Source: Owenia fusiformis (Eukaryota; Annelida; Polychaeta; Sabellida; Oweniidae). Taken from it: DNA of 64,000 nucleotides. Within the stretch, counting starts at the first letter, position 1. Every line of letters begins with the position of its first letter. The stretch spans positions 2,046,001 to 2,110,000 of the forward strand of contig CAIIXF020000005.1 in the NCBI GenBank assembly GCA_903813345.2. The letters are read 5' to 3'. Made by a program: the position numbers and the translations under genes. A model generated the notes under the pieces. The model worked only from the letters and a program-made list of their open reading frames with translations. It had not been told where the DNA came from and did no database searches. Shown here piece after piece: positions 2,510 through 63,654 of the stretch.

Positions 2510-3400
2510 CACGCGGTAGTATCTCTTCGGGACGTATCGAAACCACTCCGTCCCGAAAAACCGTTAATTTGAATTTAAAACCTACCCCAGTGTTTGAAAA
2601 TCAAGGATTGTGAGTCTCACACTTCACCGTTTTTCTTCAAACTTGTTCCGTACAAAGCTTCACAGAAATACCTTTCAGTCGATACATTGTTTTCGTGTAC
2701 AAAGTACCTCGTTTTAGCGGCGTTTTGGTCCCCAGCTGTGAGATAAAGCAAATTTTCATAACTTTCAACTGTAAGTCAAGTTATCTCGTCAGTCTTTTAC
2801 CCATTCTCGCCCATAATTTCAGAATGGACTCCCATTACAACCTTCCATCGCTACGTCTTGATTTTTGGGCATCAAACGCAGCAGTTTCTAAATCATCCAC
2901 ACATCTCTTCAAATTTGACTAATACGTCCCGTCACCTTCCACTACGCCCCGCCGAGTCTATCTATTAGTGGAAGATGACGGGACGTATTGGTCAAATTTG
3001 AAGAGATGTGTGGATGATTTAGAAACTGCTGCGTTTGATGCCCAAAAATCAAGACGTAGCGATGGAAGGTTGTAATGGGAGTCCATTCTGAAATTATGGG
3101 CGAGAATGGGTAAAAGACTGACGAGATAACTTGACTTACAGTTGAAAGTTATGAAAATTTGCTTTATCTCACAGCTGGGGACCAAAACGCCGCTAAAACG
3201 AGGTACTTTGTACACGAAAACAATGTATCGACTGAAAGGTATTTCTGTGAAGCTTTGTACGGAACAAGTTTGAAGAAAAACGGTGAAGTGTGAGACTCAC
3301 AATCCTTGATTTTCAAACACTGGGGTAGGTTTTAAATTCAAATTAACGGTTTTTCGGGACGGAGTGGTTTCGATACGTCCCGAAGAGATACTACCGCGTG
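2510..3400. mobile_element. Palindromic DNA transposon (foldback MITE), 5-bp target duplication
   Basis: Two arms of about 430 bp are near-perfect inverted copies around a short centre near 2955. The ends read CACGCGGTAG and CTACCGCGTG, and the element is flanked on both sides by ATGAT (2505-2509 and 3401-3405), a clean 5-bp target duplication. Mirror-image open frames of 75-85 codons in the arms are a by-product of the palindrome. CAC...GTG ends with 5-bp duplications are what Transib/RAG-type transposases leave, so that superfamily is a possible source; no transposase is present. The arms are so similar that the insertion looks young. Confidence 0.88.
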
Positions 3401-5674: not shown

Positions 5675-8136
5675 ATGGCTTCAGCACCAGACAATCGATT
5701 TGATTCGGCCACAGTGCTTGCAATTCTACTTGCAGCTACAGAGGATATCTTAACTGGTCCATTTGAGGCTCCTGAGCCACGGGGTCCAGAGTTGCCCCCT
5801 GGGGTAACAGCTGGGGGTTACCCTGAGGAAATGTTCCTGGGTCTTGTAGAGGAAGCTAAACACAGAATTGAATGTGGCATATGGTGAGTCAATTGCATTT
5901 GTACATTAAGCCACTCAGTTAAATACTAAAATATAAGTTAAAAAATCAATGAGCTCCAAACATATTATGTAAATTGCAAATGTATTAACCCTCTGATACC
6001 AATCACGTCTTTCTGTTTTGCAACTTAAGATGCTCTGATTTAATGTGACCACTTTCCTGATCTGAAAATCTGACATGAAACTGTTCTGGAATTCAAATAT
6101 TAGCTAATATAAAAAAATGATTTCGATAAATTTTATTCTGACTCGTCTCTTTTAATAGTTCCAGTCTATTATATGTTTATCATGAGAATATTGACTCATA
6201 TTATTGGTAATATTCTCAATAGGATTGTGTGTTGTACAAATATTTGTCACAAACTGATTTTGCATATCTCTGTTTTCATAATTCCAGTTACAACATTCTG
6301 AAGAACACTCGTAGATGTAGTAATGAACACAAGTTTTGTACAACATGTATCTATGCCTGGACTACTACAGGGGGCGCTGGCAATGATAAATGTCCAGTAT
6401 GTCGTACTAAAGGATTCTATGTGAAAGACCCTGCTCTCGATGAACAAATTGGAAAAGAGAGAGTAAAATGTGTAAATGAATCATGTAAGTGGCAAGGACT
6501 GTTAAAGGACTTTCAGTACCACAGACATGGATATGACATGCACCCTAAACAGGAGGCTGAAATCAATGCTTTGAATAAAATAGGAGTTGGTTATTTATTA
6601 AACAGGCAAAATGACTCAAGGAATACACTGGAGGATATACTAGTCCCAGGATCTCAGTCTAGGCACAGAGCTGATGGGATATCACCATTTGCCTCTGACA
6701 CTGTGCCAACTGCTGAGGAATCTGATCACGAGGATGATGAAAATGATAATGCTCTCCCTCATATATTTGGATTCCCTCATCTCTCATCAGGGTTTAATCC
6801 CCGTGGTGAAGCAGAGCGATCAAATCGTAGAAGACGTCACCAAAGAATGACCCATCAGCTGCAAGAAGGTCGTGAAAGGCTGGCTAATTTGATGGATATT
6901 TTCAATCAGCAGTTGTTAGTACGTCGTGCGAATATCCTTGCCTTACAACAAGAGCGAGAGCAACGAAGGAGGCAACAATTAGCTGAAGTGAGGCATATAG
7001 GACAGAGGTTGGAAGATGTTTCCAGCAATCTCATGTCTTTGTTAACTGACATGGATGGTCAGTTGGATGATTCACGGGCCTATATCAATAATCAGAGATC
7101 TGAGACCCAGCGAGCCAATGATCTGTTGAGGCAGCCACTGCGGCAGTCTTCTTTACGCCGTGATGAAAATTTGACGGCAGAGGAATCTCAGAGACTCAAT
7201 GAGATTCTAGATGAATCACAAGAATCATCTCCTAGGAATCCATTCAGAATTTCAGTGGATCATACACCCAATCTTAATAGTGGAGCACGGTTTAGAGCAT
7301 CACAAGCTCAGAATGACACATCCCAAAATCAGAACAGTCCCAGAGGAGGTCATTTAGTCCCATTAAGCAACTCACCCAGGGAACCTACAGGTAATTCACG
7401 CGGGTCTCATCCCAGTAGGGTCTCCAGAAGCCCTGTAGCCCCTGCTCCTTTAAGTATGGACAATGCACCAAGCAGCCTTAACACCCCTAATGTTCTGAGG
7501 ACAGTCAATAGAAATACAGACATTAGAAGTAATACTGAGACATCAAGTATAAATGCTTCAAGATTTCAAGAGAGAATACAAAGGTCTTCACCAGACAATA
7601 TCATCCATAGGCCCTCAAGTAGATCACGGAGGTCTATAGACTCCAGACCCAGTAGTGCCACACCATCCAGATTGCCAACATCTAATCCCACTAACACTAC
7701 AAGCTCTCTACCAGGACCACCACCCTCTAGTACTGCCCAGAGGGTGCTGGATACAATGTCTTCACAGGAGCCCCAGTCACCAAGTAGGAACCCATACAGA
7801 ACTGTCGTAAACAGAGTGCCTTCTGCACGGTCACAAACTGGACAATCTACAGAGATTCATTCTGGTGTCCGAATCCCACCAAACACAGAGAGTTCTTCAA
7901 GGCCAACTATGCACGTTGATACAAGCCCCCGACGACGTGTTGTGCTGCCCTCTAGTGACCCATCACAGGTGAATGATCAGCGATTTGGAACATTGTCACG
8001 GTCGTTGGACAGGGGTCAATCAGGTGCACGACTTAATGGATCTCAAGACTCCTCAGGTTCTCGCAATCATTCCATGTCGCCTAGGAGACGCCTACGGAGG
8101 AGTCAGACAACAAGAAACAATCTACAGGGAAATTAA
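5675..8136 (+). CDS. RING-finger protein, probable E3 ubiquitin ligase, 685 aa, two coding exons
   Basis: Coding exons 5675-5883 and 6288-8136. The intron (GTGAGT ... TTCCAG) splits a Cys codon of the RING domain, and joining restores CGICYNILKNTRRC followed by SNEHKFCTTC and CPVC. The zinc ligands are C67, C70, C80, H84, C87, C90, C105 and C108, a C3HC4 RING. A second Cys/His cluster follows (C131-x4-C136-x-W, H148, H150), like the extra zinc finger in TRAF-type ligases. Residues about 250-350 are a charged, Gln/Arg-rich coiled coil. The rest, to the stop, is Ser/Pro/Arg-rich and looks disordered, with several SPR/SRSP-type sites. RING domains of this type recruit E2-ubiquitin; the substrate is unknown. 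I could not assign an orthologue. The start is the first Met of the frame, 66 residues before the RING. No other gene is nearby. Confidence 0.82.
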
Positions 8137-11498: not shown

Positions 11499-14126
11499 TG
11501 TCCACTTTTGAAGCCTTATTTGCCACTCTGTCCGATTAGTTTGAGTGGATAGATGTATGTCACCATGCTTTAAACAACCTTTTAATAATTCAAGTTATTA
11601 AATGATGATTTACGACATTTTCTTTCTTTGATCTGTAAAATCAACATCAAAACCTTTTCAGGGGTAAATAAATCACATATACAAACAATGAGTATCTGTA
11701 TGCCCAAATCATTCGGACTATTAATCAATTAATTTTCCTGAGACCTAATGCTGTGAGGTTATAAACATAAATCTCATTTACTCGCATGGATTATTCCATC
11801 AAATCCAGTAGATAAATTAGTACATTGTTCAAGTTGATGCAATTCAAGAGTCACTACAGTAAAACCTGCCTTAGCAGAATACCTTTGGTACCTCTAAAAG
11901 GTGTTCCACTTATAGAGGTTCATTATACATTAAGTTGGTCTTGTGACTCTGAAGTGTTGTACTAATAGAGGTGTTCCACTTCTAGAGGTGTTCCACTTTA
12001 CAGGTTTCACTGATATCTGATTATTCTCTCTCGGCTGCACTTTCACTATTTAGATGTTACACATATGGAAATGTATTATATTATACAGGGTAACCCCTAT
12101 TGTGGTCACTTAAAATAATTTGGCAATTTTTTGCAACCAATGGAACACAATTGTTGAAAGGGTTGATAAGTCCAAAATTAACTCAAATCACAAAAGCATT
12201 TTTTGTTAAATTCTTTTTGGTATTTAATTTTCTCCAAATAGTGGTCACCATGTATGTTGGACAGCATGTCCATATTCCCACATGTTTTTTTTGAGACATG
12301 TTTATCTCATCTCAACAAGGTTTCACTTCACAATGTTATATTCCATTTCAAGGTATATCTACATGCATATTCCAAGAGGACATCATTCCTGTGACACCAG
12401 TATTAATGAAACATGATTTTGAAGCTACTGAAAATATTGGAACGTTGTAACTCAGCAAGGTTAAATTGCTCTGATACGAAGCGTTCTGGTAAAAATGTTG
12501 TGCCTGGATAACACCTCAAACATTCTTCATAATAAAGCTTTTTTGTAAAAATGCTTTGTAATGAAGTAATTAAACAATTGTGTGTTGTGTTAAACATACT
12601 GTAATTCTTGATCATTGTTTTATAACAAGTGTATTGTAAAGTGACATTTTTTTTGTTCTAAGAGATGAAATCCTTGATTAATGGCAAGGACCATTCAGGT
12701 ATGCTATCATTCAATGCTTCAGTTAACTCCATTTACAGTGTAATCTTTGGAGATATATTCACTATATTGTGCAAGATTTACTGATTTGCCAATCAGAGGT
12801 TTTACAATTATGTCAACATTTTTAACCTGAAAGCCATTCATTCCCAAGAGTTGAATCATGTTAAAGAAAAGCTATGTGATAAAAGTTTATAAGATAACAT
12901 TTCTATTTTCATTTATTGTTTAATTTATTCCATATGCACATTGTATCAAAGGTGTAGATATGAGTATAGTATAAAATAAACATTTTCTATGATCTGATAT
13001 TTAATAGATATTTTTTGTTATTCTTTTCTCAGCGTCTAACATTACAGTAACCATGGTAACAGTTAAACTTATACAGCAGTATCAGGTTATGTGTAATATA
13101 TGTTTTATTGTTTTAAACAGTGACTGAATTCTGAATTCTTGAATAACTACCTTAACCTCCCCGAGGAAAATAAAGGAAAATATTTCCAATGAGGAAAATT
13201 AAATGGGTTCCATATTTAACTTTGATTTTTCTAAAAAATGATTAAGATTTACTGGGAATCATTTTCCTTAATGTTTGGAGCATTTCAAAAATGATCCAGG
13301 TAATTTTGATGGAGATACGAGTACATACACTAAATATTCAACTGTGGTATATTTGCTATCTTTAGGGGTAAACATGTAGTTAGTTTGAGATCAAAACAAT
13401 AATCTTTTCTTCCTTCAATCAAAGACTAAACTTTACATAGATTTATTTTGCCTAATGGTTTTGTACAATATTTGTATCATTGCAATTGCAGAGTGGTTGA
13501 AATAGCAAATGGAAATCGAGCTCAACATCTCTACTTTCTTAAATCATGATCACAAGCATTTTATGTTCCAGTCCATCACATCAGGGTTCTATGGGCATAT
13601 AAAGCCATACATACATACAAATACAATACATGTGTGTCTTCATACATGTACTCCCCCTTTGTATTCAGTATGTGAGGGTCAGTCAAGAGCACCATGAAGA
13701 TTGCAGATTATTACACTGTAGAGACCTTAGGTTCTACATGTATCTTAATATGACATCATTCATGAGATACATGCCATAATATGACATCATTCATGATACA
13801 TGCCATAATATGACATCATTCATGAGATAGTGTTTATGAATGTCATTATATGACATCATTCATGAGATACTGTTCATGCATGTCATAATATGACATCATT
13901 CATGAGATAGTGTTTAAGTGTGTCATAATATATGACATCATTCATGAGATACTGTTCATGCATGTCATATTTTTGACATCATTCATGAGATTGTGTAAAA
14001 TGAGTGTCAATATGACATCATTCATGAGATACTGTGTATGCATGTCATAATATGACATCATTCATGGGATAGTGTTTATGAATGTCATATTTTTGACATC
14101 ATTCATGAGATTGTGTAAAATGAGTG
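11499..14126. other. Intergenic DNA downstream of PRMT6, with one small MITE
   Basis: At about 11857-12010 lies a small element with ends CAGTAAAACCTG and CAGGTTTCACTG and internal repeats of AGAGGTGTTCCACTT, resembling pogo/Tigger-type termini. A partial relative starts at 50464. From 13748 the PRMT6-associated minisatellite begins. No gene was recognised between. Confidence 0.5.
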
Positions 14127-17411
<3,285 letters not shown>

Positions 17412-25141: not shown

Positions 25142-25256
25142 ATTTGAATCAATATGTCATCGTCGAGGTATTTTTGAGATGCTTCACACAAAATCAATTA
25201 TTGGCAAAATAATAAATTAATCAATAGGTTTTGATTTGGTTAAAATGAAGGTTTAT

Positions 25257-28200
25257 TCAACTATTGAAGGCAACTGATCTTTTGTCTCTGTTTTTTAATC
25301 GTGTCTTAGTCCTTGCTTTGAATGCAGCTGCATTGTATAAAGTCTGAAAGAGAAATCAAATGGCATGGTCAAGGCAAAGATCTTATACATCAAAGATTGT
25401 ATAAAGTCTGAAAGTGAAATCAAATGGCATGGTCAAGGCAAAGATCTTATACATCAAAGATTGTATAGAGTCTGAAAGTGAATCAAATGGCATGGTCAAG
25501 GCAAAGATCTTATACATCAAAGATTGTATAAAGTCTGAAAGTGAAATCAAATGGCATGGTCAAGGCAAAGATCTTATACATCAAAGATTGTATAAAGTCT
25601 GAAAGTGAAATCAAATGGCATGGTCAAGGCAAAGATCTTATACATCAAAGATTGTATAGAGTCTGAAAGTGAATCAAATGGCATGGTCAAGGCAAAGATC
25701 TTATACATCAAAGATTGTATAAAGTCTGAAAGTGAAATCAAATGGCATGGTCAAGGCAAAGATCTTATACATCAAAGATTGTATAAAGTCTGAAAGTGAA
25801 ATCAAATGGCATGGTCAAGGCAAAGATCTTATACATCAAAGATTGTATAGAGTCTGAAAGTGAATCAAATGGCATGGTCAAGGCAAAGATCTTATACATC
25901 AAAGATTGTATAAAGTCTGAAAGTGAAATCAAATGGCATGGTCAAGGCAAAGATATTATACATCAAAGATTGTATAAAGTCTGAAAGTGAAATCAAATGG
26001 TATGGACAAGGCAAAAATCTTATACATCAAAGATTGTATAAAGTCAGAAAGTGAATCAAATGGCATTTTCAAGGCGAGGATCATATACATCAAAGATTGT
26101 ATAAAGTCTGAAAGTGAAATCAAATGGCATGGTCAAGGCAAAGATCGTATACATCAAAGATAAGGAATTCAGTACCATATATCAAAGATAGGCTCAGTTG
26201 TCAAAGATCATGATCAGGACATTTATCAAATATCAACCCTACTTTATGGACTTATATTTCTGAGTCTTTATATGGTCTCTTATCTCACATTTTGTAATAA
26301 ATGATTTCATCAAAACATTTAGTGAGATTATATTTTGTTTGAAACATACAATTTTGGACAGGTCATTACTCACTCTTTCTATTTTACTAGATTTCGATAC
26401 TGGAGCAGCACCCTGAGGAATTGGTGCACCAAGGCCGAATACATCACGGACGAGATCATTCTCCTACAAGGCAAATCTTAAATCTAATACATGTATAATC
26501 AGAACATTTTTGCATCAATAAAGTAAAATGGCAAAAACACTTCGTTTTTATTCACTATTTACATAACATATAACCTACATAGTGGAGACAGTCTTGAAGA
26601 TTAACTACTGTGTAATGTGTAAAAGCCTCACCTGTAAATGTAGATTCATTCCTGTACCCAGGGCAGAACAGAACATGTCATACTGCTTCTTGCGCACCCA
26701 GCTGTAAATTTCTAAGCATTCTCTGCCGAATTTTACACTCATTTCAGGGGCATCAGCTTCCTGTGAATGGAATATAAGAAGTAAATAGATGTTTTCTATT
26801 GAAGGTAACTCACTTAATATAATGAAGGTCTTGAAAAAAACACCAAGCTGGTGAATTGGGCAAAATGCAGTGTGCTCCAGTGGCACCCAAGAGAACAGTT
26901 GATTATTTCAGCGTGAATTACATCAATTTGATGAAAACTGGTCTATAATCCAATTTGAGCCAGTAGATATTTAAGGAATAAAGACCGAGATTGTATGATT
27001 TATAGTGTGATATATGACCGAAAATTTTATTCTGTTCATTGTTAAATCGCGATTGAGGTCTTTGGCAATGACCAGAATAAAATTTGAGGTCGTACATTTG
27101 ACATAAATCATTAAATCGAGGTCTTTGCATTTGTGAATTTTAGCGGTCATACATACTTCATTATACACCAGTAAATCAATTGTTCTAGCAGCCTGAATAT
27201 CTATGCTCAGGTGGAAACAAAGGCTAAATCCGGTCTGAATGTAAACAAATCAATTTGCCATACACTGCAGTCAACTGATTGGTCTATTTACCTCTACAGT
27301 CCTGAGCACATCTCTAAAGCTAGAGCGCTGTTTCCTCCTGTCAACTTTGGCACGAAATTTGTTGCTATCGGTGGCTAGTTTCTTCAGAATATCACAGAGA
27401 TTTTCCAAGTCTTCAAACTCAAAGTCCTGAAACATAATGGCAAATTATTGTTGAATTCTGTCTAGATGATAGGCAATCTGAGATTTTGAATTGATGTTGC
27501 TGTGAAGTTGTGAAATAGATACAGTTCAGGGATAAAGTACAAAAAAATTTAGAACTCTTATACTCATTACTTTGAAATTTTCAAACAGGTGGCCATCTTG
27601 GAAATATTATTTTCATGCGAAACTATTTACCAATTTATATCTTTCACTGAATATGAAGAAAATTAGTAGTTGAGGTATTTTCTGCTCAGAAAGACAGACT
27701 GAAGGAGGGCTTTATTATATTTTGGAATAAAAATGAATCTGAACTTGAGTATATGATCAATGTTCCAACTCCATGTGGCTTTGATACACAAGTTTTAGAA
27801 TCTGGTCAAGCAGAAGCCACCTAGTCTAGTTATGTGAATACAGATAAACTTGTCAACATAAAGAGGCTCTTTGTATTTGAACATAAAGCTTTCTAAAGTG
27901 TGTTCTAAAGCTCTGGAAAAGACACAAACCTCATTTTCATCTCTAGCTAGTTCAAACAGCAGGGCTATGGCCTCCCCTGCCTCAATGCGTAACTCTACAT
28001 TATTACTTGCCAACAGCTCAGGAAGTTTTGGTAAGTGTCTACAAATATAAACAAAAAAATACTGATTTGATGGCCTGTATAGTTATAAAACCATAAAAAG
28101 TGGCACAATACTGCTTTGAAGATGATGCGTGATGTAAATATTGAGTTAAGAGTTATAAACAGACATCAGATTTGATCTAAAAATTTTAAGGTCGTTGAGG

Positions 28201-31200: not shown

Positions 31201-34200
31201 CAAAACTACATGTAGATGTTCATGCATGAAGCCATGGGGCAAATAGCATTGTTACAGTAATTAATTAGAGTTTGAAAATTCATAATTTTGCTTAATCATT
31301 TTTCTTCTATTAGCTGAAGTCAAAAAATTTAGTTCTAATCAGTAATGTCCATGAGATCTCAATAATCTCAAATGAAACTTTACATTGTTTTAAATGAGAG
31401 TTTGATTTTAAAATAAATGTTAGATAGAAAATGCTGTGTTATGATGTCCAGACTATATTTTCTGTATGTACATATAGATCAAAAAATCAGTTGCTCTAGT
31501 TTCAAGTGTGTAGAGAATATAACTTACCCTTTAGTTTCAAGTGAGTGGAGAATATAACTTACCCTCTAGTTTCAAGTGAGTGGAGAATATAACTTACCCT
31601 CTAGTTTCAAGTGAGTGGAGAATATAACTTACCCCCTAGTTTCAAGTGAGTGGAGAATATAACTTACCCTTTAGTTTCAAGTGAGTGGAGAATATAATTT
31701 ACCCTTTAATTTCAAGTGAGTGGAGAATACCCTCTAGTTTCAAGTGAGTGGAAAATATAACTTACCCTCTAGTTTCAAGTGAGTGGAGAATATAACTTAC
31801 CCTCTAGCTTCAAGTGAGTGGAGAATATAACTTACCCTCTAGTTTCAAGTGAGTGGAGAATATAACTTACCCTCTAGTTTCAAGTGAGTGGAGAATATAA
31901 CTTACCCTCTAGTTTCAAGTGTGTAGAGAATATAACTTACCCTCTAGTATCAAGTGAGTGGAGAATATAACTTACCCTCTAGATCTGCAGCAAAGCTCCC
32001 AGCATCTGACAGGTTGCTGACCACACTCATATTATCTGGGGTGTCTACGTCACTAGCCTCACGTGAGCCCCCATTATGCTTCCCACCAGCTCCTGAAATT
32101 AATTTGAAAATATATTTTCAACAGAAGAAGGCAAAAGTAAGAGCTGGGAAAAATTGTATAAAAAATTACTAGGCCTATACCCTTTTCTTTCCAATTTAAA
32201 CCAGAACAACGGCAACGCCAAAGCGTAGCGAATCCCATCGAACAGCCATGGATGGCATTTTTACAAACAAAGTATATAGCAAAAATGGCAGCCATTTTTC
32301 AACATGGCAGCCTTCTACCAAAAGTGTCATAAGACCATGTGCCATGCTTATAGTATTCATATACCAAATATGAACAAAATCGCTCCACTACTTTTCAAGT
32401 TATAGTAAAAAACGTTAAAATGGCGGCTATTTTTCAAAATGGCCACCTTCTACCAAAAGTGCCATAAGACAGTGTGCCGTGCTTATTGTATTTACAAACC
32501 AAATATAAACAAAATCGCTCCACTACTTTTCGAGTTAAAGTAAAATACGTTAAAATGGCGGCCATTTTGAAAAATGACCAAAAGTTTAGACAGTGTGCTA
32601 TGCTTTCAGTATTCACATACCAAATATGTGGCCGCCTTCTTTCAAAAGTGTCATAGGACAGTGTGTCATGCTTATAGTATTCACATACCAAATATGAACA
32701 AAATCGCTCCACTACTTTTCGAGTTATAGTAAAATATGTTAAAATGGCGGCCATTTTGAAAAATGGCCGCCTTCTACCAAAAGTGTCATTACACAGTGTG
32801 CCATGCTTATAGTATTCACATACCAAATATGAACAAAATCGCTTCACTACTTTTCGAATTATAGTAAAATACGTTCAAATGGCGGCCATTTTTCAAATTT
32901 TTTTTCAAAATGGCTGCCTTCTACCAAAAGTGTCATAGGACAGTGTGTCATGCTTATAGTAGTCACATACCAAATATGAACAAAATCGCTCCACTACTTT
33001 TCGAATTATAGTAAAATACGTTAAAATGGTGGCCATTTTTCAAAATGGCCGCCTTCTAGCAAAAGTGTCTTTAGACAGTGTGCAATGTTTATAGTATTCA
33101 AATACCAAATATGAACAAAATCGCTCCACTACTTTTCGAGTTACAGCAAAAATCGTAAAATAACGAGTAAAGGCCGCCATTTTTCAAGATGGCTGCCATG
33201 TGCTTCTTTAATATCTACATTTCTAGCTTTATTAATGTCCTATATAATTTTTTTACATCTAAAACATATTGCTATTACAGTTTTACATATTGCACCTAAA
33301 TTACTGTAAATTCGGCACTAAAATGGCCGCCATTTTGAAATGAGCGGCCATTTTGAAAATCGGCTTTCGAGCAGAACTTCTATCCCCATAGGGTATATGT
33401 GTACAAAATATGAACAAAATCGGGCCAACAGTATTTGAGTTATTGCCCGGACGGACGGACGGACGTACGTACGGACGGACAGACGTACGGACGGACGGAC
33501 GGACGGAGGCGTTCCCTATATCCCTCCGAACTTCGTTCGATGGGATAACAACTTGAAAACTTTCTAGTTGTACTTTTATCAATTTTTGCCATATCAAATA
33601 AATGAATATGATCCTATACTTATTCCAATATTGTAAAAATATATCAGGGTCGTGAACCATCCTCCGATCACAGGGCTTCAAAATCCAGAATATCTTCTTT
33701 CTTTTTACCCCCTGCTATAACCAAGTTGGACGCGCCCGATTAAACTAAATCATGTGATCTTATTATGCGCCGATGACGTATACATGATTTCTGTCGCAGT
33801 GTTGCGACAGCCAATCAAATTGCGAGTTCTTAATCGGGGAAATGCTAACTGCTTATAGCAGGGGGAAGAATGAGGTACCGATTCTGGACACCTGCTTAGG
33901 AGGATGGTCGTGAACGTGATGACAGAGGAACTTGAACAATAAAAGAATTGAATATAGTGTTAAATCATCAAAACATTTAAAAACACCTTGCCAAAGAGTT
34001 TTTAGAAAATTTACCATCTTGACCAATCAGATAGCAGAATTTTGAACCACACCTACTTTTTGCCAGACACTCCAGATTACATTACTAAACTTGGAAAGAA
34101 GAAGGTATTAGGTCATGATTTTGGGTTTGCCCAAATTTATCATATTATTCTGGAGACCCTATCTGTTGCAAGACTTATGCCTGGCACAACCGTCACCATG

Positions 34201-44689: not shown

Positions 44690-47600
44690 TCATGACTGTT
44701 GTAATATGCTGAAGGTTGAAGCTGCAAGAGTTGATTGTGTGTCATCCAGTCTTTGTCGAGATTCTCCCAATACTGACAGACATTCCTGGAAGCTTGTTGC
44801 TGCAGCCTGGCTCACTGACACTGGAATAACAGGAAATCTAAATATGTATATCATACCTGACACATTAAAGTGTACTATATGTACTATAATGTACATGTAT
44901 TCAAAGAAATACAAGCTACCAAAATGGCTCATAATGTTTTTAGGACTTTAGCAGGAGTGACTGGACAGCTGGAGGGAGACAGTTACTGAGCTTCAGCTTG
45001 TAGCATTTAGGTATTTGATGCTGGTCATTCTATTTACACAATCAACACTTACCAAGTTCTCCAACAGATGTTTTACTTTGACCTAGATTTGAAAATGTTG
45101 TTTCTGTGGCAGTATTTCTTGATATGATTGTTGAGTAGCTCTCTCGTATGTCACCAAGTCCTTGAAGAAGCTAGAAATATCGTTAAATATATTTAATATT
45201 CAGTCAACATCATTTTGGTTTTTTGTTGCCCGCTGCATTCATTTTATAAAGAGAGCTGCTGAATTATGGCATTCTTTAGCTCAGCAATAATGGGTTTATA
45301 TTGATTAATATGTGGACATGTTAATTTTATTGAATATTACATTAGAACAAACAAGGCAATCAGATGAAAAAATGTTACAACCTGGTCAGTTATTTTAAAT
45401 TGTTAAAAAAGTGTGACAATTTGTTTTAGACACCCACCATGTTATGATAAAAGTGTGGATATTAACAAAATAAATATCCAAAATAAAACATGATCACATT
45501 GATAGAATATTTTGTTTTGCCTTATAAATGAAGAGAAAACAGCTACATTGACCAAAGTGTTCTCTTCAGAAAAGACTGCTACATTCTGTATCAAAAAGTG
45601 ATTAATATCCAGGCTTCATTTAACACTGCACATGTATAATACTTTCTACTTAGCAATAGCAATTCAGATCAACATGCCATAAACATGTACGAAGATATAA
45701 TTTTGGATATTGTTCAACATATTTGTATTGATTATACATGTTATACAGTATTCCCCATCTTCAAACACATGAATATTCTCAATAATTTCTCACAGTTTTC
45801 AATTGAACCAATTGACTCATGAGTTTGTTTTAACAAATTCAGCTTAACTATTGTGCTCCATTCTAGTATTTACTTACTGCCGTAAATTTTTGTAACATGG
45901 AATGTACTCTTTTAAAAGCAGGTCCAAGCTGTGAGAGATTTGGGGGCGTTTTGTTACACCACTGTTTCATCTCATTTTCATAGCAGTAGGAGAAACTGGT
46001 TACCAGCTGAGAGAGTTCAGAGAGGACAATACGGAGAGTCTGGCAGACCTTAGACACTGTCCTGGGGTCATCTTGGGGATATGCATGCTGAAATAATAAT
46101 AGTAGAATACTCTTGAGACTTACTCTGAAATAATGACAGAAACATTCTCTCTTTACACGTACACGCAACAACATTTCTATTTACTCTTAGATACGGCTTA
46201 GATGCTTTTTACTCACAAGATGAAGAATGAACAACCTACCAGTTTTGTGATTTCATTTAATACTTCAGTCTGCCTAGCAATATCATCTACCAGCCTAGTA
46301 GACTCATCTAATAGTGCTTGGACATCTGGCAGTGGCCTGCAACAGTCAGAATGTACACAAACATAACATTGGAATGTCACCAACTGGTTGCAATTTGTAC
46401 CCTGGCTGTCAAACCAAACACCATTTCACAGGAAGATGCATTTGTATTAAAATTAATTGAATTTGAATACTTAATTATACTTTGATTCCTTCAAGTTCAA
46501 ATTGTTATAGAATAAAGAAATTTTGGCAAAATGACATTTTTGTGGCAGAGTTATTTGTAATCATTCGTAACTGTACAACCAGGCTGCTTGGATGCAATTC
46601 TAGGAATGTTTATCATTGCGTTCCAGTTACAAATTACAGTTTGTGGCCATATTGTATTTCTGCAGGTTCTATAAGGCATCAGACTATAAGTTGAACCTAA
46701 TCCATCAACCAGGTTTTTAAACTCATGTACTCAGTTTACATCTTTCACACCTCGTGTACTCAGTTTATATCTTGTCACACCACATGTACTCAGTTTACAT
46801 CGTGTCACACCACATGTACTCAGTTTACATCATTGTCACACCTCATGTACTCAGTTTACATCTTGTCACACCACATGTACTCAGTTTACATCTTGTCACA
46901 CCACATGTAATCAGTTTACATCTTGTCACACCACATGTACTCAGTTTACATATTGTTACACATATGTACTACATTTACATATTGGCACACTATATGCACT
47001 TACTTTATATCATGTGAAGATATTCCCTTAGCCTGCCACTGCCTGTGTACGAGTGTAGAGAGGTCATGGGGGAGGAGGGCCACTCTGCTGGAGAATACAT
47101 TGTCCAAGTCCTGTGTTGCGAGAGAATCGACATACCAGCAGTCCTTCTCAAACTGACTGTCTACCGACATAGCATCGCTGAAAGAGTTAATTGAAAATCA
47201 TGAGTACATGTATTATTAGAGTATTCTGAGTATTCCTATATTCCAAAATGTATGCGAGATATTAAGTTGCGGAATGTTGACAAGATTAGAAGGATACTGG
47301 ACAATGATGACATTTAGACTCTCTATGTGGCCACCTCAGCCACACAGGTTGACCTTGATTGGCCAAGATGTTAAAGCACATGTACTCATATTTAACAATA
47401 CATGTTCAATATTCCTCATATCACACTCTGGTTGATAAATACCCAGCCCAAATCATTCCTTCCACATTCCAAAATGTACCAATCATTAGTTCAAGAAATA
47501 TGAAACACAGTTCACCTTGATAGTTAAATAAAATAAGTTAATTTACCTGATTAGTCCAGGTGACATCATGGCTTGTTTAGAGGGGTTGTCAGCAGCATCT

Positions 47601-54677: not shown

Positions 54678-63654
<8,977 letters not shown>

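Follow-up and report, generated by a model that had tools for sequence, protein, structure and literature searches.

Several acceptors serving one exon are familiar from NAGNAG and other close tandem acceptors, which lie a few bases apart and use one common branch point. The acceptor array described here, in contrast, has a branch-point-like stretch for each unit, intact in 11 of 13 units. Multiple splice donors in one transcript are reportedly supplied by a human minisatellite in a 1995 study, the gene being said to be 6-16/IFI6. Splice sites are likewise repeated at exon 12 of the IFRD gene, but there they are acceptors.

Internal tandem repeats that alter the structure of human genes have been studied (PMC2812944). 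The closest described systems are the mirages, minisatellites lying over an exon-intron boundary, found at either end of an exon in the Adh3 and globin genes of amphioxus (PMC3087553). According to that report, AG or GT occurs in many, not all, of the units, and the Adh3 data together with RT-PCR of globins suggest that regular splicing is not interfered with. Cryptic use of the copies was called possible, and the gain of introns or exons by way of repeat copies was proposed for the globins.

The 64-bp array at IFRD exon 12 (Table 1) resembles these systems. Its tandem units span the boundary and overlap the exon, their length of 63–64 bp falls within the 10–160 bp that can be gathered from the amphioxus report (PMC3087553), and AG is present in 11 of the 12 copies. 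The units lie on the acceptor side, as in BflGb6, while those of BflGb9 lie at the 3′ end of the exon; the unit of 64 bp compares with 150–160 bp in BflGb6, 157 bp in BflGb9 and 10–72 bp in Adh3, and the copies are more numerous than the units counted in two BflGb6 haplotypes, 6 and 3 (PMC3087553). Unlike the amphioxus cases as described there, IFRD carries an acceptor array and a donor array in one gene. No title among the literature matches listed, from searches worded without IFRD, was of an IFRD case. The array is best filed as a further mirage, in IFRD, with two companion arrays in the window, that is, the whole stretch of 64,000 nucleotides of Owenia fusiformis DNA analyzed.

The IFRD gene and its tandem arrays

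The host gene belongs to the IFRD family and lies on the minus strand. Exons 2–12 (32092–31976 to 25343–25257), mapped with exon 1 left out and numbered as in the preliminary description of this DNA, form one open frame ending at 25257. The C-terminal 146 residues display both domains of the family, IFRD_C (PF04836, 1.3e-20) and IFRD (PF05004, 5.5e-13), each above the curated Pfam cut-off. This part also matches IFRD2 in solved structures (6mtc_v, 4.5e-42, query residues 1–141), and the tail aligns with that of IFRD2. The solved structures matched comprise four distinct sequences, one labelled LP04564p, and a rough joining of the N-terminal exons matched the same four. The gene model is firm. 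The AATAAA at the end of exon 12 probably serves this last exon as its poly(A) signal.

Table 1. Positions in the window of the splice-junction arrays and of the IFRD exons next to them.
Feature	Position	Strand	Basis
64-bp tandem array across the intron 11/exon 12 boundary, with 12 bases in exon 12; holds the authentic acceptor and 12 copies of it	25332..26161	-	Tandem Repeats Finder and unit splitting
12 upstream acceptor units, 63–64 bp each, the first partial (54 bp)	25408..26161	-	unit splitting
Last unit, authentic acceptor TTTCTCTTTCAG	25344..25407	-	unit comparison
191-bp trimer (63+64+64), three copies: units 5–7, 8–10, 11–13	25344..25916	-	unit comparison
IFRD exon 12, last coding exon, stop TGA 25259–25257	25257..25343	-	open frame, IFRD_C match, IFRD2 tail alignment
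AATAAA overlapping the exon 12 stop codon, putative poly(A) signal	25252..25257	-	motif seen; function putative
IFRD exon 11, donor AAAGA/GTGAGT	26374..26463	-	exon joining
IFRD exon 2, authentic donor AGAGG/GTAAGT at 31976	31976..32092	-	exon joining
35-bp tandem array across the exon 2/intron 2 boundary: 13 downstream donor copies; 7 bases in exon 2	31494..31982	-	Tandem Repeats Finder, donor scoring
96/99-bp array with 59 bases in an exon of the thioredoxin-reductase gene; acceptor copies at 57030 and 56934, both upstream of the authentic 56835	56777..57033	-	Tandem Repeats Finder, scoring

The preliminary description had proposed a 64-bp minisatellite repeating the exon 12 acceptor, and its existence, with 12 upstream copies, was confirmed by Tandem Repeats Finder and by unit splitting. 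The program reported a period of 64 with 13.0 copies, 95% matches and a score of 1527; it also found a higher-order period, 191, scoring 1569. When the minus strand was split wherever CTTTC[AT]G precedes ACT, 13 acceptor cores resulted, and the corresponding exon starts are 26107, 26044, 25980, 25916, 25853, 25789, 25725, 25662, 25598, 25534, 25471 and 25407 for the copies and 25343 for the authentic site. In the 1.5 kb upstream of the authentic acceptor, the best second copy of its stretch from -30 to +12 shares 41 of 42 bases with it, compared with at most 25 of 42 in 100 shuffles of the stretch.

The earlier statement that each unit carries CTTGAC and an acceptor applies to most units. The exceptions are CTG in place of AG before 26044 and an altered CTTGAC in units 2 and 3. 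The sequence TTTCACTTTCAG is exact in eight of the 12 copies; three are without one T, and the remaining one is the CTG copy. Twelve exon-like bases, then CTTTGA, follow every copy, but the identity with the exon start that had been asserted for all is limited to nine, the other three reading ACTCTATACAAT, a synonymous change. The authentic acceptor does, as described, differ by a single base, T for A at -8, where all 12 copies have A. Over its last 54 bases this is the sole difference of the authentic unit from units 6, 7, 9, 10 and 12. The announced combination of acceptor copies in one IFRD intron and donor copies in another also stood, the donor array being real.

The three copies of the 191-bp trimer differ from one another only at -8 in unit 13. 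The most diverged units are 2 and 3, towards the intron side. Mirages show inner homogenization with the edge units excluded; here the inner trimers are identical and units 2 and 3 diverged, but both edge units are close to the rest, the exon-edge unit being one base off and unit 1 close as well. A search for relatives of the array in viral contigs gave 21 pattern matches, none of which was confirmed.

The unit of the donor array repeats the last bases of exon 2 together with the donor. The authentic donor scores 10.8 bits, a value equalled or exceeded by 11 of the 13 donor copies; the other two score 8.1 and 0.9. Reading through past the authentic exon 2 donor gives EGKLYSPLT, followed by a stop.

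Strength and context of the copied acceptors

The scoring matrix for acceptors was built from those mapped in the IFRD and thioredoxin-reductase genes, 22 in number once the authentic exon 12 acceptor was set aside. The authentic site scores 8.1 bits, eight of the 12 copies 7.2, the three T-less copies 4.7 and the CTG copy -0.4. When left out in turn, the 22 real acceptors score from -0.3 to 14.7, and 7.2 bits exceeds six of them; therefore the core signal hardly favors 25343. In the 20 bases before and 3 bases after the junction, the eight copies differ from the authentic site only at -8, and three others are in addition without one T. By core signal most copies are ordinary acceptors, while use of the CTG copy as a splice site would not be expected. 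A large gap in core strength between the authentic site and the copies was ruled out for these eight (0.9 bits); it is 3.4 bits for the T-less three and larger for the CTG copy.

The sequence that follows is different. Over the 85 bases that follow, the purine fraction is 0.59 for the authentic site and 0.36–0.39 for the 12 copies; beyond the 12 shared bases, GAR/AAG/AGA motifs number 9 versus 1–3 within 75 bases. A last-exon acceptor adjoining its exon is favored by exon sequence and by coupling to the poly(A) site. At the authentic site alone is there a full exon with AATAAA directly behind it. The choice of 25343 would thus be understandable, as it is the one acceptor followed by the full exon 12 and by a poly(A) signal about 85 bases off.

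Hiding of the copies by RNA structure was considered and rejected, since local folding predicts a mean unpaired probability of 0.51–0.73 at the 12 copies versus 0.55 at the authentic site. For the AG itself the predicted unpaired probability is 0.04–0.16 at the 11 AG copies versus 0.19. The copies sit 5′ of the authentic acceptor and are transcribed first.

Junction-spanning arrays in the two mapped genes

The third array lies in a thioredoxin-reductase gene, of which 12 exons were mapped from the matches of a human query, with one exon end set by hand; the mapping leaves out the 5′ part and 59065–58139 (about residues 257–286 of the human query). The extra acceptors at 57030 and 56934 score 12.9 and 13.9, compared with 14.25 for 56835. 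No stop interrupts the frame across the two extra copies in 57030–56740 (291 bases, 97 codons), and splicing at 56934 would add 33 residues, at 57030 65 residues. These repeats may possibly be exonized. A 109-bp duplication at 60385–60605 on the minus strand ends about 40 bases before another exon of this gene (60343) and does not cross the junction. The frame ends with GGT TGC TGA GGT TAA (54678–54698, minus strand), which we take to fit the selenocysteine near the C-terminus expected of the thioredoxin-reductase family.

The mapped exons of both genes provide 44 junctions (23 acceptors and 21 donors). A close second copy within 1.5 kb was found at three of them, with 37, 41 and 38 of 42 bases, and these are the three arrays. 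Decayed mirages were looked for at the other junctions and none was convincing: 40 of the 44 stay within the shuffle maximum, and 57585 is one base above it (25 versus 24).

The two mapped gene spans hold eight tandem arrays, of which three cross a junction. Short ones are counted among the eight: a 5-bp microsatellite and two arrays measuring 37 and 40 bases. All eight were placed at random in the spans, whole exons being spared, in 20,000 trials. The mean number crossing a junction was 2.2, and three or more crossed in 38% of the trials (P = 0.38), so that no enrichment of arrays at splice junctions was detected. That two arrays reach 12 or fewer bases into the exon (12 and 7) has P = 0.03 under random placement, by a criterion chosen after seeing the data. 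Junction-spanning arrays are thus no more numerous than chance would make them in these repeat-rich genes, and no special mechanism is needed. The random-like placement and the third array in another gene argue for a by-product of repeat turnover which is not specific to IFRD.

The GC content of the window is 32–41% per 4 kb. Other long tandem arrays, all outside both mapped gene spans, occupy 265–1181 (67-bp units), 13746–14162 (40/122) and 46722–47015 (30). An identical open frame of 102 residues on 2614–2919 (plus strand) and 2961–3296 (minus strand) forms an inverted repeat, the minus copy being without a Pfam match. The exon at 16029–16325 on the minus strand encodes a methyltransferase domain (best Pfam match PrmA, 6.8e-08), and presumably resembles a protein arginine methyltransferase. 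A long open frame at 6286–8133 on the plus strand gives weak RING-finger matches below the curated Pfam cut-offs.

Proposed origin of the array and possible use of its copies

With the frame set by exon 11, splicing to any of the 12 copies would give a product ending in KIERTLYNL followed by a stop, as had been foreseen, whereas the authentic acceptor reads TLYNAAAFKARTKTRLKNRDKRSVAFNS to the stop and the protein ends in KIERTLYNAAAFKARTKTRLKNRDKRSVAFNS. The foreseen truncation of the C-terminal tail is also borne out by the frame: the last 24 residues would be dropped, including 19 of the 52 IFRD_C positions (query residues 123–141). The C-terminal helix of mammalian IFRD2 enters the mRNA exit channel of the ribosome, and its tail contacts rRNA, uS11 and eS26, as stated in the structural report (PMC6226290). 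Because the IFRD2 tail enters the channel, a copy-spliced IFRD would by analogy be expected to lose this contact.

We consider it likely that the array is a mirage whose acceptor copies are by-products, and that the spliceosome acts mainly at 25343. A short tandem duplication with one end in intron 11 and the other 12 bases inside exon 12 would have given birth to the minisatellite, and each unit would have carried along a branch-point-like stretch, a pyrimidine tract and an AG. Later expansion, lately in 191-bp trimers, may have proceeded by unequal exchange. Its recent date is suggested by trimers that are identical but for one base on the exon side and by diverged units 2 and 3 on the intron side. 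Authentic splicing would be expected in the main, perhaps with leakage, and low-level leakage to the copies could possibly yield some truncated IFRD. Counting against this reading are the near-equal core scores of most copies, their earlier transcription, the slight difference in predicted AG accessibility and the somewhat rare short exon overlap of two arrays. The array is most likely harmless. The ladder of acceptors had been named decoys, a word that would imply that the copies compete or act; it would best be read as a mirage.

Low, unregulated use of the copies with a functionless product is a sub-case of the mirage reading, and the probabilities of the two overlap. We hold this leakage as a tentative possibility, with a chance somewhat short of even. 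Copy core scores near that of the authentic site make leakage or use possible as far as the bases themselves go, and the amphioxus report allows for cryptic use (PMC3087553).

The proposal that the copies work as decoys goes further. They would take a regulated share of splicing, set by the repeat number, and produce IFRD without the C-terminal channel helix. In its favor, 11 of the 12 copies keep AG and eight have core scores near the authentic one; all lead to one product, TLYNL and a stop, in the last exon, and exon-junction-dependent decay of such a transcript is not expected because no later junction is known. What would be lost is, moreover, the tail whose IFRD2 counterpart enters the mRNA exit channel (PMC6226290). 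However, the shared outcome follows automatically from copying one unit, and the expanded units are too alike for any trace of selection to be read from them. A similar array occurs in the unrelated thioredoxin-reductase gene, and amphioxus mirages reportedly leave splicing undisturbed (PMC3087553), a result that may not carry over to the host of the IFRD array. We regard working decoys as very improbable. It is still less probable that the number of repeats governs how much IFRD lacks the helix plugging the ribosomal mRNA channel, and that individuals or even cells come to differ in this ribosome-silencing factor through a mutable repeat.

Very unlikely, too, is an intermediate of intron or exon gain, in which a copy becomes a new exon or a repeat a new intron, for although such a model was published for globins (PMC3087553) and the thioredoxin-reductase array is open through both copies (96 and 99 bases), every IFRD copy meets a stop after five codons, so that its units cannot serve as internal coding exons as they stand.

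Regarded as a mirage, the IFRD array is a natural experiment on the choice of a last-exon acceptor by core signal, exon sequence, poly(A) signal or transcription order, and a useful one because most copies are nearly equal in core strength. The thioredoxin-reductase array, being open in frame, could add coding sequence. Three arrays in 64 kb, about the random expectation, suggest that minisatellite-bearing DNA in general may often contain mirages.
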